Below are positions 7,463 to 12,458 of a stretch of DNA of 32,384 bases, one piece after another. The stretch comes from Chloroflexota bacterium (GTDB lineage: Bacteria; Chloroflexota; Anaerolineae; Aggregatilineales; J027): positions 1 to 32,384 of the forward strand of contig RFGP01000166.1 of the NCBI GenBank assembly GCA_003697365.1. Direction: 5' to 3'. A program made the position numbers and the translations under genes. The notes below the pieces were generated by a model, which was not told the DNA's origin, made no database searches, and worked only from the letters and a program-made list of their open reading frames with translations. Position 1 is the stretch's first letter. Each line of letters starts with the position of its first letter.

Positions 7463-7837
7463 TCAGTCTTTCTCAAGAGATAAACCCGGACGCATAACTT
7501 TTCTTACAGAAGCTAGAAAATCCTGTGTCAAAACAGCGCGAGACTCTCCCGGAACATCGACAGAATCCGGTAAAGCCTTCATAGATTTTAATGCTTCTAA
7601 GAAGGCTTGAGCTTGCCCCAATATATCACGTAATTCATCAATCGTTGCTTTTGCTTCAACAGAGGTTTCAGACACAGAAGAACGCTCAAGCGGATCAATG
7701 CCATCTAAAGACATCAACGCCCACGTTAAAATCTCGCGCGTTGTATACCCTTTTTCTTGCCAAGCCTCAAGAATCGCAAGCGCTTGGCGCTCTTCTGGAT
7801 GTTCTTCATCAAGTCTAAATGACACCACTTTACTCAT
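7463..7837 (-). CDS. ParR-like ribbon-helix-helix protein
   Basis: The ATG overlaps the stop of the ParM-like gene by four bases (ATGA), so translation is coupled. The 124-aa product begins with a strand, KVVSFRLD (3-10), then two helices (about 12-29 and 32-44, TTREILTWALMSL). That is the ribbon-helix-helix DNA-binding arrangement. The rest is an acidic, helical C-terminus (about 62-124), where plasmid ParR proteins contact the ParM filament. Gene order parM then parR, with repeats upstream of parM, is the classic type II partition layout. Sequence identity to known ParR is probably low, so the call rests on fold pattern and context. An unrelated RHH repressor coupled to an actin-like protein is the main alternative. 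Confidence 0.65.
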   Translation of the reverse strand: MSKVVSFRLDEEHPEERQALAILEAWQEKGYTTREILTWALMSLDGIDPLERSSVSETSVEAKATIDELRDILGQAQAFLEALKSMKALPDSVDVPGESRAVLTQDFLASVRKVMRPGLSLEKD

Positions 7838-8865
7838 AGAATACCCATCATCTCATATAAACGCCACAATTTTTGCCCACCACGCACATTTGCCAAGTGA
7901 ATGCTTTCAGGTTCATCTGCTAAGATGATTGATTTATGTCCAAGAATGGGCAACAAGCGATCATATAAAATAGCGCTACCGCCACCAGTTAAAATAATAC
8001 TATCCCATGGCAAAGGGCCGCCCGCTAAATTTTGGTAAGTATCAGCTATTCTATTTAACAGGGTACTTGCTGCTTCATTTACCTCTTCTGTGCAATCGAT
8101 TTCTTGCCCACCCCCACGAAAAATTCCCGAAGCCACTGCATGGCGTACGCGCTCTGGAGGTAATTTTGTTAACCCCCTTACAAGTTCACGATGCTTCGCC
8201 CTAAAACTTCGCTCAAAATCGCGAAAAACTTCCAAGATACCCATTGGCGTGCTCTCACTTAAACTATAATCAACAGCACCACCGCGCCCCACAGCCAACC
8301 AATCAGTTGTATGTCCTCCAATATCAATGACAAGTGAACGCCCATCCAAATCAGAGCGTCTGAAGTGTTGCCCATCCTCAGTGAGCAACAGGTTCATTAA
8401 TCCCCCTACTGGCTCTTCAAATGTATTCACATAATTTACCCTAAAGCGGCGCTCTTTTCCTCCAGCTTCGACATACCAATCACCAGCCGCAGATTCCATC
8501 AAATTATCACGATAAATGACATCACCGGGAGGATGGCTTCCAAAAACTGAAACATTCACGCCATAATCCATCAAGCGCGCCAATGTAGCAGCCACAAAAA
8601 CTCCATAATAATCACGAGTATAACGTGCTGCCCCTGTACGTCGGGTTACCGTACCATGTCGTTCTGCGCTTTCACCAATGACATAATATTCTCCATTAAC
8701 GCGCATATAATCAATAGGTGGGCCGCTAGGCCCTGCACGATCAATCACTTGTTGATATTCTGTTTCGGTCAGACGACGGAGCGCATGAGGAAAAGTAATT
8801 TCGCGATCATTCATTTTCGCTTTGATAATGCTATTGCCAGCATCAAGTACCATTACTGTCTTCAT
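7834..8865 (-). CDS. ParM/StbA/Alp-type actin-like ATPase
   Basis: The 343-aa protein starts at the ATG at 8865 with a GAGG a few bases upstream; the open frame continues back to 8901, but that stretch is the GTGTATAC repeat region. Actin-family motifs are all visible: phosphate 1 LDAGNSIIKA (7-16), phosphate 2 VIDIGGHTTDW (179-189) with Asp181 and Asp188, and the adenosine motif ILTGGGS (291-297), then ANVRGG (325-330). This matches the ParM/StbA and Alp7A branch, not MreB, FtsA or DnaK, which differ in length and motifs. Plasmid ParM polymerises on ATP to push ParR-bound DNA apart. Here it sits among chromosomal housekeeping genes with a ParR-like partner. The cellular role is unknown. Confidence 0.88.
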   Translation of the reverse strand: MKTVMVLDAGNSIIKAKMNDREITFPHALRRLTETEYQQVIDRAGPSGPPIDYMRVNGEYYVIGESAERHGTVTRRTGAARYTRDYYGVFVAATLARLMDYGVNVSVFGSHPPGDVIYRDNLMESAAGDWYVEAGGKERRFRVNYVNTFEEPVGGLMNLLLTEDGQHFRRSDLDGRSLVIDIGGHTTDWLAVGRGGAVDYSLSESTPMGILEVFRDFERSFRAKHRELVRGLTKLPPERVRHAVASGIFRGGGQEIDCTEEVNEAASTLLNRIADTYQNLAGGPLPWDSIILTGGGSAILYDRLLPILGHKSIILADEPESIHLANVRGGQKLWRLYEMMGIL

Positions 8866-8881: not shown

Positions 8882-8901
8882 GTGTATACGGGTGTATACA
8901 C
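8882..8901. promoter_or_regulatory. Two GTGTATAC repeats upstream of the ParM-like gene, candidate operator or centromere site
   Basis: GTGTATAC occurs at 8882-8889 and again at 8892-8899, a 10-bp step (one helical turn). Because GTATAC is its own complement, the pair also reads as an inverted repeat, and the second copy extends to the palindrome GTGTATACAC. The site begins 16 bases before the parM-like ATG, in the divergent gap to the acetyltransferase gene. ParR proteins bind arrays of about 10-11-bp direct repeats and repress their own promoter, so this is the natural candidate. Two units are fewer than in plasmid parC sites. Confidence 0.5.
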
Positions 8902-8978
8902 TTATGCTACAACTATTTACCTTTTGTGGCAAGCGGGTTACATTAAGTTATAAATATATTCGTTCTTCAGGAGTAAAA

Positions 8979-9497
8979 ATGATTACCGTAAGACCTTTAA
9001 CCGTTGTAGATGCAGAATCTTTTCGTAATTTACGCTTATATGCCCTTCAAGAAAGCCCTACTTCATTTAGTAGCGCTTATGAAGATGAAGTGGCAAGGCC
9101 TCTCGTTCATACTATTGAACGATTAAAACACCAACAACAACCAAACAATTGCATTTATGGCGCATTTGCTCAAGAAGAGCTTATCGGAATGGCAGGGTTC
9201 TTTCAACATGAGGCCCTAAAACTACGTCATAAATCAATTATTTGGGGAGTTTATGTTCTGCCCGATTGGCGGCGACAAGGAGTTGCACGTCAAATGATGG
9301 AAGTGATTCTCAATCAAATTAGAACACTTCCTGCCGTAAAACAAGTTCATGTCACTGTAGTCAATAACAATGACAATGTTGCTGCAAAACAAATGTATCT
9401 TGAGCTAGGTTTTGTGGAATGGGGAGTTGAACCACGAGCAATACTGATAGACGGTCAATATTATGATGAAGCGTGTTTAGTCTATATGCTTGACTAA
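8979..9497 (+). CDS. GNAT-family N-acetyltransferase
   Basis: The ATG at 8979 has CAGGAG at 8968-8973 five bases upstream, so the longer frame from 8892 is not used. The product is 172 aa. Motif A of the GNAT fold is clear: IIWGVYVLPDWRRQGVARQM, with the acetyl-CoA pyrophosphate loop RRQGVA at 98-103. Later, VTVVNNNDNVAAKQMYLELGF matches the motif B region. The N-terminus (ITVRPLTVVDAESFRNLRLYAL) resembles RimJ/RimL- and YjcF-like acetyltransferases. The substrate is unknown. It diverges from the ParM-like gene and its stop overlaps the stop of the next minus-strand gene by four bases. Confidence 0.88.
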   Translation: MITVRPLTVVDAESFRNLRLYALQESPTSFSSAYEDEVARPLVHTIERLKHQQQPNNCIYGAFAQEELIGMAGFFQHEALKLRHKSIIWGVYVLPDWRRQGVARQMMEVILNQIRTLPAVKQVHVTVVNNNDNVAAKQMYLELGFVEWGVEPRAILIDGQYYDEACLVYMLD

Positions 9498-10441
9498 TCA
9501 GCTGCAGAGCTTTGTTCTCGTGGCTCAGGCATTAAGCCTAACTTTACCAACCGAGCTTGATACCGTTCTAAGGTCATGCGCCCATAGCTCATAAAATGCC
9601 CTTTTACTTGTTGAGAATCCAGCTTCACTTCGTCAGTATCTTCAGACTGTACGCTTAGTTTCTTGAGCTTGCGGCGCATTTCCCATGCTTCTAATTTATC
9701 GCCTAGAGCCCCCTTCAGCACCCACTCTCCTAGCTTTTTAAACATTCCGAGAACACGCTTAGGCACATATTCTCTAGTTGGGTAAAAAGGTTTCTGAGCA
9801 TTTGGCAGAAAAGTATCAGCCCAGCGATTTAGTTCTCGCATTTGTTCATAAAAATTATAGCCAAACAATGGGATCATCTGCGTTAATTCATGTGCTAAAA
9901 ATAAATTAGAGGAATCAAGCGCCATTGCTTCAGTAGATAAAACATAATTAGGGCATAAGGTAACCCCTCGAAGCCGCACAAAACGTACAAGTGCTACTGC
10001 AAACAACCGCGCTAGCCATACTCGCCCATCTTGAACCACAAGAATATAGTCTAAATCATCTTCCAAATGAGCAGCATTGTGAACCGACAACGCTCCAGTA
10101 ATGGCAACCATTCGCACAAAGGGTAAACACCCTAACCAAGCGCCATAATATAGAGCCTTTTCCCATAAAATTGATGATACTTTTTGGCGTTGCTGACGCT
10201 GTTCAAAAATATCTGGCACTGCAATACGCAAAGCATAAAACAAAGTACCATTTACTTCGGCAGAGCGAATATGCTCATTCAACCACGTTGAGGGTTGGTT
10301 GAGAGCCGTATAAACGTCTACTTTTTTAGCCGATACTCCTAAAAGAAAATGATGAATTTCATCTGCCATCATAGGGAAGTTAAAAACATCAGCATAAGCT
10401 AAAGTTTGAACTATTGCGAGTTCAAGGGTCGTTGGGGTCAT
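9494..10441 (-). CDS. Winged-helix plus nucleotidyltransferase-like protein
   Basis: The 315-aa protein starts at an ATG with AGGA ten bases upstream. Residues about 4-45 (LAIVQTLAYADVFNFPMMADEIHHFL) look like a winged-helix-type helical N-terminus. Residues 115-136 (start TGALSVHNA, end DDLDYILVV) fit the Pol-beta nucleotidyltransferase pattern: a glycine turn at 116, then DxD at 129-131. The segment LCPNYVLSTEAM (162-173) and the helix NLFLAHELTQMIPLFG follow. The last 90 residues are helical and charged. The arrangement resembles minimal or orphan nucleotidyltransferases; substrate and partner are unknown, and no HEPN partner gene is adjacent. The domain call is by pattern and moderately sure. 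Confidence 0.68.
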   Translation of the reverse strand: MTPTTLELAIVQTLAYADVFNFPMMADEIHHFLLGVSAKKVDVYTALNQPSTWLNEHIRSAEVNGTLFYALRIAVPDIFEQRQQRQKVSSILWEKALYYGAWLGCLPFVRMVAITGALSVHNAAHLEDDLDYILVVQDGRVWLARLFAVALVRFVRLRGVTLCPNYVLSTEAMALDSSNLFLAHELTQMIPLFGYNFYEQMRELNRWADTFLPNAQKPFYPTREYVPKRVLGMFKKLGEWVLKGALGDKLEAWEMRRKLKKLSVQSEDTDEVKLDSQQVKGHFMSYGRMTLERYQARLVKLGLMPEPREQSSAAD

Positions 10442-10510: not shown

Positions 10511-12016
10511 CTATTGCCAAATCCATAAGTTCTGAAATTGACAACGCCCAGCATCAGCCGCATAGTTAAGCAATATCACGCCAACAGTTCCCTGACTTGG
10601 CGGGCTATATTGTGTATTGAAATAAATACCATTGATATAAGTTATAACATAGGGGCCACGTAGAATAATCGTCAGACGCTTTGTGTTGTCATTCAACCTA
10701 TCTTCATCAGATAAAGTAATGAAATCATAGGTATGTGATAAAATCATCCCATTGCGCACCACAATCACGCCAGCATCGTTTGTAGTACCTACATAAACAA
10801 TAACACGATCTGTGTTGCCATTGTCACGAAGTGTGAGTCCACACGCAATGTCACTGCCTTCTAATGAAACAACATCTATATTCACTACAATATCATCGTA
10901 CAAAACATCATCAGGTAGCTGTGTATAGGCTCTTGTCGTTTGAGGGGCGATTTGATAGCCAGTATCAAGAATAGTGTAAACTCGTCGCCCACCATCTGTA
11001 ATAACCATTGCTTCAGCTAATTCAGATGTAACTTCATCGGCACGTATTGAACGCCACGATTCAAGTGTAGAAGGTGTATCAGGAGGAACAACTACAGCAG
11101 TGGTGAGCATGAAACGTTCAATCTCCACCCCTGCCGCACGGCCATCGCCTCGCAAAAGCAGTCCCCATCCTCCACTTGAAAATGTACTATCCTCTATTTG
11201 GGTTACTTGCTGCCCATCAACAAATAAAGCTAAATCTTCTCCTAAAGTCGATGCTCCTAAAGAGATTATATTCGATGCAAGCTCTATTGTTCCTTCATCT
11301 AAAATAGTTAATTGTCCAAACTGCTGACGCACAACAGCCCACTCACCTAATGGATTTAGATTAAAATAATAACCATCGGGCGTAAAAGCATCGTCTATAG
11401 TACGTAAAACCAGCCCAAATGTAGTACTTCTTTCCGTCGTTCGCCACGTGAATTCTACATGAAGATAAGCATCTGAAATTGTCGTATACCCAACTGGCCT
11501 AACTACAATAGTTCGATCAATTAATCGGCCGGTTTCATAAATCAGCTTATTATTTTCTTGCCGAGTATAAGGTGTGTTCCAGCGAGTGATACTTTGATCA
11601 AAATCATCGCTATCCCAAACCATAGGCAATGTGGTTGGCAACACAAGCAACTGATAACTGCCACTGCCTTTAAACGGTTCAACTTGAATAATGTATTGTT
11701 CGTTTGCTTGAGCTAAAAAAGTCGTTGATGCATCAAAAATAATACCTTCAACAGCATCATCATTTTGTGATACTAAATTACCTTGTGAGTCGTAAACACT
11801 CATACGCGGATCAAGATCACCACTAGTGCGCCGAACAAAAACACTTAAATCCATGTCATTTTGTACGTCAAGTTGCCACGATTGAACTTCATCCGTAGCG
11901 ATTGTTCCCAAGACTGTTTGACCAACTCTTATCATTGGTGTTTGGGCAAAAGCCGCTTGTTTCAGAAACACACTCAGCATTACAATAATGAATATGGTAA
12001 AGCAAAATTGTCTCAT
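10511..12016 (-). CDS. Secreted protein with PPC-like N-terminal domain
   Basis: The 501-aa protein (ATG at 12016; another ATG at 12019) begins with a clear Sec signal peptide ending AFA-QT near residue 24. Residues about 30-130 match a bacterial pre-peptidase C-terminal (PPC)-like beta domain: VLGTIATDEVQSWQLDVQND, then LDPRMSVYDSQGNLVSQND, and YIIQVEPFKGSGSYQLLV. Two further beta-sandwich regions follow (about 140-310 and 330-500). They have lectin/LamG-like patterns such as FGLVLRTIDDAFTPDGYYF and CGLTLRDNGNTDRVIVYVG, each ending with a display strand like YINGIYFNTQ. No catalytic motif is seen. It is probably an extracellular binding protein. Its first codons overlap head-to-head with the gene at 11988. 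Confidence 0.75.
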   Translation of the reverse strand: MRQFCFTIFIIVMLSVFLKQAAFAQTPMIRVGQTVLGTIATDEVQSWQLDVQNDMDLSVFVRRTSGDLDPRMSVYDSQGNLVSQNDDAVEGIIFDASTTFLAQANEQYIIQVEPFKGSGSYQLLVLPTTLPMVWDSDDFDQSITRWNTPYTRQENNKLIYETGRLIDRTIVVRPVGYTTISDAYLHVEFTWRTTERSTTFGLVLRTIDDAFTPDGYYFNLNPLGEWAVVRQQFGQLTILDEGTIELASNIISLGASTLGEDLALFVDGQQVTQIEDSTFSSGGWGLLLRGDGRAAGVEIERFMLTTAVVVPPDTPSTLESWRSIRADEVTSELAEAMVITDGGRRVYTILDTGYQIAPQTTRAYTQLPDDVLYDDIVVNIDVVSLEGSDIACGLTLRDNGNTDRVIVYVGTTNDAGVIVVRNGMILSHTYDFITLSDEDRLNDNTKRLTIILRGPYVITYINGIYFNTQYSPPSQGTVGVILLNYAADAGRCQFQNLWIWQ

Positions 12017-12458
12017 CATAATTCTCTATCTTAGCTTGATATTGACTGTGCTAGCGTGCCAACAAAAAGGGTCAAAGGTTCATATAACACAGAACAACTT
12101 AGCACGTCCACGTGTTCTTGTTTTATCGCCAGAACGATATATCTATGGTGATGGTACATCAGTTGACAAATTGATTGAAGATACAGGTGCTCTCAATGCC
12201 GCCGATCACCTAACAGGTGAGCAACAAGTTAATGATTCACAAATTATTGAGATGAATCCAGACATTATCATTTTCACTTCTAGATGGCAAAACACAGCCA
12301 TCATCGAATGGGCAAATGCTTCCGTTTATGCCGAAATTAATGCTATACGCACCAAACAACTGTACCGTTTTCCCTATCGACTTACGGATGCCAACTTACA
12401 AGTGAAAAGTGAACAATATCGCATCTTGCTAAAGCAATTGCTTTGGCGGCAAAATTAA
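11988..12458 (+). CDS. Lipoprotein with only the C-terminal lobe of a periplasmic-binding (BtuF/FepB-like) fold
   Basis: The 156-aa product (ATG 11988, alternative ATG 11994) has a lipoprotein signal with LTVLAC and Cys24. From about residue 41 it matches the C-terminal lobe of class III (TroA-type) substrate-binding proteins: PRVLVLSPERYIYGDGTSVDKLI, then IEDTGALNAADH, the hallmark IIEMNPDIIIF, and IRTKQLYRFPYR near the end. A normal BtuF/FepB-like protein has about 300 residues, and the whole N-lobe is missing here, although the signal peptide is present. No permease or ATPase gene is near. It may be a real half-size binding protein or a remnant of an internal deletion. No good ribosome site precedes either ATG. 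Confidence 0.68.
   Translation: MNMVKQNCLIIILYLSLILTVLACQQKGSKVHITQNNLARPRVLVLSPERYIYGDGTSVDKLIEDTGALNAADHLTGEQQVNDSQIIEMNPDIIIFTSRWQNTAIIEWANASVYAEINAIRTKQLYRFPYRLTDANLQVKSEQYRILLKQLLWRQN

Follow-up and report, generated by a model that had tools for sequence, protein, structure and literature searches.

In the ParMRC system of the Staphylococcus plasmid pSK41, the gene for the actin-like ATPase ParM is followed by a small adaptor gene, and repeats lie upstream of parM; a ring of the adaptor, ParR, is known from plasmid R1. Chromosomes may carry such genes too. The cParMs of Desulfitobacterium hafniense and Clostridium botulinum are chromosome-encoded and have recently been shown to polymerise, and one of these systems has a chromosomal parC that is bound by its ParR (Ali et al. 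2025, PMC12270681). ParA and ParB are also present in their hosts or in related genomes, and on this ground the authors conclude that ParMR is not a replacement (PMC12270681). In filamentous cyanobacteria, the FcmB/FcmC pair is a horizontally acquired plasmid partition system that became fixed on the chromosome and determines rod shape (PMC12645912).

The locus described here occupies part of a 32,384-base contig (the window), one of 220 in a draft genome of 3.1 Mb, and comprises two genes:

7834 to 8865, minus strand: parM-like gene for an actin-type ATPase, 343 aa, start ATG at 8865, with profile, PDB and Foldseek matches.
7463 to 7837, minus strand: parR-like partner gene, 124 aa, adjoining parM in 12 loci and without a match in the family libraries.

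The first gene encodes the actin-type ATPase with three nucleotide motifs that the initial annotation had reported for this open reading frame; the locus has the actin-fold ParM of a Type II (ParMRC) system. The motifs are LDAGNS (residues 7-12), IDIGGHTTD (180-188) and LTGGGSA (292-298), and most of their positions are invariant or nearly so among 12 homologues. ParM matches Pfam families PF21522 (5e-13) and PF17989 (4e-11) and a PHROG named 'partition protein' (3e-30). The solved structures nearest to it by sequence are pSK41 ParM and pCBH ParM, and the former (3js6, 3e-8) is the top PDB match, although the two proteins are only ~20% identical and the pSK41 system is plasmid-borne. With an AlphaFold2 model (pLDDT 80.6), Foldseek recovered the archaeal Ta0583, pSK41 ParM, pCBH ParM, CorM and Dh-cParM1 at E-values of ~1e-15 or better, the D. 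hafniense cParM structure 8x1i being among these fold matches. A search for viral relatives found none, and phage records gave only two weak matches, from Acinetobacter.

The stop codon of parM overlaps the start codon of parR as ATGA, confirming the coupling described previously, and from this overlap we infer that the genes are co-transcribed. As in Type II systems, a small adaptor gene lies beside parM at 12/12 loci, the only split being due to an insertion in genome G007. There, a 335-aa protein with an RRXRR domain (PF14239), resembling IscB/IsrB, is encoded exactly between parM and parR (L040:8976-10264); it has no HNH motif by eye, the ~220-nt leader of its gene has no match in Rfam, and, despite the insertion, the ParM protein is identical to that of a sister species. 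Within ParR itself, two regions can be distinguished:

7703 to 7837, minus strand: N-terminal strand-helix-helix (RHH-like) region, residues 1-45, consisting of KVVSFRLD and then helices 14-28 and 33-44 (pLDDT ~70-85).
7481 to 7531, minus strand: conserved C-terminal tail, residues 103-119, L-x-x-x-F-x-A-S-V-x-K-x-x-R-P-G-L, proposed to contact ParM.

Pfam, NCBIfam and PHROGs offer no match by which ParR could be named, and for none of the 12 partner proteins did a library detect an RHH domain. Its AlphaFold2 model, which is of low confidence (pLDDT 64.5), has an extended N-terminus, helices at 14-28, 33-44 and 59-85, and a short C-terminal helix at 105-114, elements that follow one another as they would in an RHH adaptor carrying a tail. 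The RHH-like N-terminus proposed previously is only plausible: strand and helices come in the right order, but in a model of low confidence, and the libraries lend it no match; the acidic helical C-terminus proposed with it stands only as to the helix (59-85), since the tail that follows is conserved and not acidic. This tail, with the consensus F-x-A-S-V-(K/R)-K-x-x-R-P-G-L, is second only to the N-terminus in conservation, L103 and P117 being invariant and F107 and G118 nearly so, though overall identity among homologues drops to ~31%. By analogy with ParR of R1, it is likely to be the ParM-binding segment. A fold search with the low-confidence model returned no matches, tblastn of ParR against plasmids found none, and comparison of its profile with those of the partners of Bacillus plasmid ParMs gave nothing; by eye, ParR and these partners both end in a tail of the L-x-D-x-F type.

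Upstream of parM there is a DNA site that the initial annotation had overlooked and that is new here, together with a promoter-like sequence:

8884 to 8899, no strand assigned: tandem half-sites GTATAC-N4-GTATAC with 10-bp spacing, proposed ParR operator or minimal parC, found upstream of parM in 8/8 genomes.
8904 to 8932, minus strand: promoter-like sequence TTGCCA-17-TAGCAT directly upstream of the tandem site, weak alone (1 found against 1.3 expected by chance).

Read on the parM strand, GTATACACCCGTATAC consists of two 6-bp half-sites 10 bp apart, between the promoter-like sequence and the parM start codon. The exact GTATACN4GTATAC lies 13-25 bp before the coding region in 8/8 ParM-bearing genomes of the window's genus (g1), a second genus (g5) and an outgroup genus of another family (G018), seven of them being from g1 and g5. 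Searches of whole genomes found it nowhere but upstream of parM in 7/8, against a chance expectation of 0.1-0.3 copies per 3.1 Mb; the window's own genome has one extra copy, inside an ORF. With this one copy elsewhere across eight genomes, chromosome-wide ParR sites are rejected for the exact motif, and the presence of a single conserved cis site, at the promoter of the operon itself, speaks in favour of a DNA-binding ParR but against an organiser of DNA that acts chromosome-wide. In g5, a block of ~75 bp that contains the tandem site, along with a comparable TTGCTC-17-TATCTT arrangement, is nearly invariant at synonymous divergence of up to ~1 per site. The block looks like an RHH operator or a small parC, and is a candidate binding site.

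The number of half-sites varies, from 2 in the window genome to ~4 in its congener G001 (by eye) and ~8 in G018; a GTATAC-containing series also precedes parM in G055, while G024 and G043 have no recognisable GTATAC-type repeats there. The parC of Type II systems, tandem repeats upstream of parM, is thus present in reduced form. Two half-sites are probably too few for a ParR ring, so that what the window genome has may be no more than an operator; the parC of pSK41 is larger, and cParM systems also differ from the window genome in this reduction to one pair of half-sites. The small site fits an operator, whereas the arrays of G001 and G018 fit a centromere.

The window's family and another family each have two genera with ParM orthologues, 64-82% identical, and divergent orthologues have 48% and 42% identity. 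In an even sample of 396 genomes of the class, orthologues were confined to the window's own family, and scanning 84,980 species by pattern produced four matches, all in Chloroflexi/Anaerolineae, plus a remote one in Tepidibacter. Five g5 species share one parMR neighbourhood (proBA, galK-like), and two g1 species (G000, the window genome, and G001) share another that is unlike it. Two proteins are encoded beside parMR in both g1 species (window: 9494-10441 and 10511-12019), the first without a Pfam match. Like the cParM systems, therefore, the locus combines a ParM actin with a small ParR-like gene downstream, and is chromosomal, conserved and syntenic within the genus. Counts of dN/dS by the Nei-Gojobori method in g5 and g18 gave 0.004-0.023 for ParM, lower than for every aligned neighbour, proA and proB included, and 0.02-0.06 for ParR; ParM proteins are up to 100% identical at a dS of 0.33. 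With the conserved site and the synteny, purifying selection on ParM that is stronger than on its neighbours indicates a ParMR that has been domesticated on the chromosome and has a cis site of its own, and not a relic. With conservation at 12 loci and fixed places within genera, this supports the chromosomal ParM/ParR-like pair that the initial annotation had recognised.

Our preferred reading, held tentatively and at somewhat less than an even chance, is that we have here an actin cassette that regulates itself, docks on DNA and positions or separates the chromosomal locus at which it lies, a domesticated and chromosome-resident member of the ParMRC type. ParR would bind the tandem 10-bp half-sites between promoter and parM, and in doing so would repress its own operon. 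By homology, the ParR-DNA complex would use the conserved C-terminal tail of ParR to capture or seed ATP-dependent filaments of ParM, which in turn may push apart sister copies of the parMR locus or hold them in position. Repression of the operon by ParR, with coupling of the locus to ParM filaments, is the most likely role of the pair.

The main rival is a repurposed cytoskeleton of the FcmBC/CorMR type, in which ParM filaments would serve cell shape or another non-DNA task, ParR would anchor or cap them, and the DNA site would control only the expression of the operon. FcmB/FcmC provide the precedent and a similar case, a plasmid-type ParM/ParR pair domesticated on a chromosome, with a ParR-like partner that lacks a conserved-domain match (PMC12645912). 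The CorM filament (9rmi) is among the structural matches of the window ParM (E 1.3e-16), ParM is under far stronger constraint than ParR, the tail helix of ParR is moderately amphipathic, and two half-sites suffice for an operator. The role of FcmBC/CorMR in shape is documented, however, and their filaments are membrane-bound (PMC12645912); the ParR of the window has no confidently predicted membrane segment. The DNA site, moreover, is retained and conserved here, with arrays in two relatives, and the portion of the FcmBC/CorMR report available makes no mention of such a site (PMC12645912). Two MreB genes are kept, as in nearly all relatives; there is thus no sign of a missing shape actin, and replacement of MreB is rejected. 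On balance, we consider a cytoskeletal role unlikely, though far from negligible.

As a second alternative, the pair may be a leftover or selfish stabiliser, brought in by a plasmid or an integrative element and persisting with no role for the chromosome. The ParM family does have plasmid relatives, at ~25% identity. ParM is 64-69% identical between families f1 and f3, against 38-45% for DnaA, and 67% identical between genera within f3, no closer than between families, so that it may have been transferred from family to family and then kept by vertical descent. Two more distant homologues occupy mobile-looking contexts, L045 with a ParA gene and L046 in surroundings that include a resolvase and a type I restriction system. 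The former (L045:3620-6428, in G024) is a second, divergent parM-parR (48%) with a ParA-type ATPase gene and a 129-aa ORF directly after it, so that actin-type and Walker-type partition genes appear to be joined in one operon. There is also a distinct group of ParM-like proteins with ~23% identity to the window ParM (L048, L049, L050, L053, L054 and L055), often accompanied by a small protein of partner size; at L049 it lies near genes for a primase-polymerase and an RHH protein and near a topoisomerase-like gene, which suggests that this order harbours a family of plasmids or integrative elements.

Against a leftover stands the setting of the window, in which gltX, miaB, lgt and uvrA, the housekeeping neighbours named previously, all score at or above curated cut-offs, alongside an acyl-CoA dehydrogenase and a divergent GNAT acetyltransferase, and which lacks any gene for replication, mobilisation or phage functions, in keeping with the earlier statement that no plasmid or phage gene is nearby. 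This profile-identified content, with its housekeeping genes, leads us to reject a plasmid origin of the contig, and carriage by a low-copy plasmid, a feature of Type II systems, is replaced by chromosomal neighbours in the window and in relatives. Nor is the pair confined to recently integrated plasmids in relatives, an outcome that the initial annotation had set against its own interpretation; the neighbourhood is constant across the species of each genus, and a ParM dN/dS near 0.01 is not what a leftover would lead one to expect. We regard this alternative as improbable, the pattern of selection making both it and the following one less likely. That the chromosomal ParR and its site form a device that hampers the partition of plasmids entering the cell with a related ParMRC is highly improbable: related and apparently mobile ParMR systems do circulate in the order, and in G024 a chromosomal-type pair (64%) is present together with the pair next to ParA, but the repeats of that mobile relative are different and longer (TACGTATGTG-type), so that it would escape, and interference by ParR alone needs no strong constraint on ParM.

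The preferred reading, a cassette that docks on its own locus, acquires a wider interest from the hosts. HMM searches with positive controls, in genomes that are all drafts and from whose bins plasmids may be missing, found no SMC hinge in 101/101 relatives of the order, 69 high-quality genomes among them, and no full SMC in 17/17; SMC is present in 62/81 genomes of a phylum sample, including all nine same-class controls. ParB scored above cut-off in 4/101 genomes of the order versus 67/81 of the phylum sample, and no genome with ParMR has a canonical ParB. Exact parS is absent from the 17 genomes tested, and a site with at most one mismatch occurs in 1/17. The window's own genome (G000) does encode, on a 5-kb contig, ParA with a divergent ParB-like protein of 424 aa (L070:1167-3204), and similar pairs were found at L084, L085, L086 and L087; several lie near primase-polymerase or integrase-like genes, and this recurrence makes them look element-borne. 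A chromosomal ParABS, the reported though non-defining companion of cParMR, is therefore represented here by element-type pairs only. The window's hosts thus differ from those of the cParMs in lineage and in the absence of canonical ParB, parS and SMC, and because canonical ParB is absent the argument from coexistence (PMC12270681) does not apply to them.

A more far-reaching version would make the locus a ParMRC with a single chromosomal centromere, the dedicated system for chromosome segregation or positioning in these genera, whose cells lack canonical ParB/parS and SMC. We think this distinctly doubtful. About 90% of the order gets by without a ParMR orthologue, and without SMC and canonical ParB as well; ParMR as a general replacement for ParB and SMC in the order is accordingly rejected, and ParMR must be dispensable for segregation in general. 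A centromere close to the origin is likewise unsupported, since dnaA is on another contig than parMR in 11/11 draft genomes, although a position on the same arm is still compatible with this.

That a whole bacterial order has apparently lost SMC and ParB is interesting in itself, and our literature search brought up no relevant paper on such loss, or on ParM, in Chloroflexota/Anaerolineae. SMC and ParB are both present in other members of the class and in most of the phylum. Within this order, a cassette under very strong selection, with a site of its own and in a host without canonical ParB, parS or SMC, offers a cleaner setting than the published cases for asking whether bacterial chromosomes can be positioned by an actin filament, or whether such a filament has taken on a different role.
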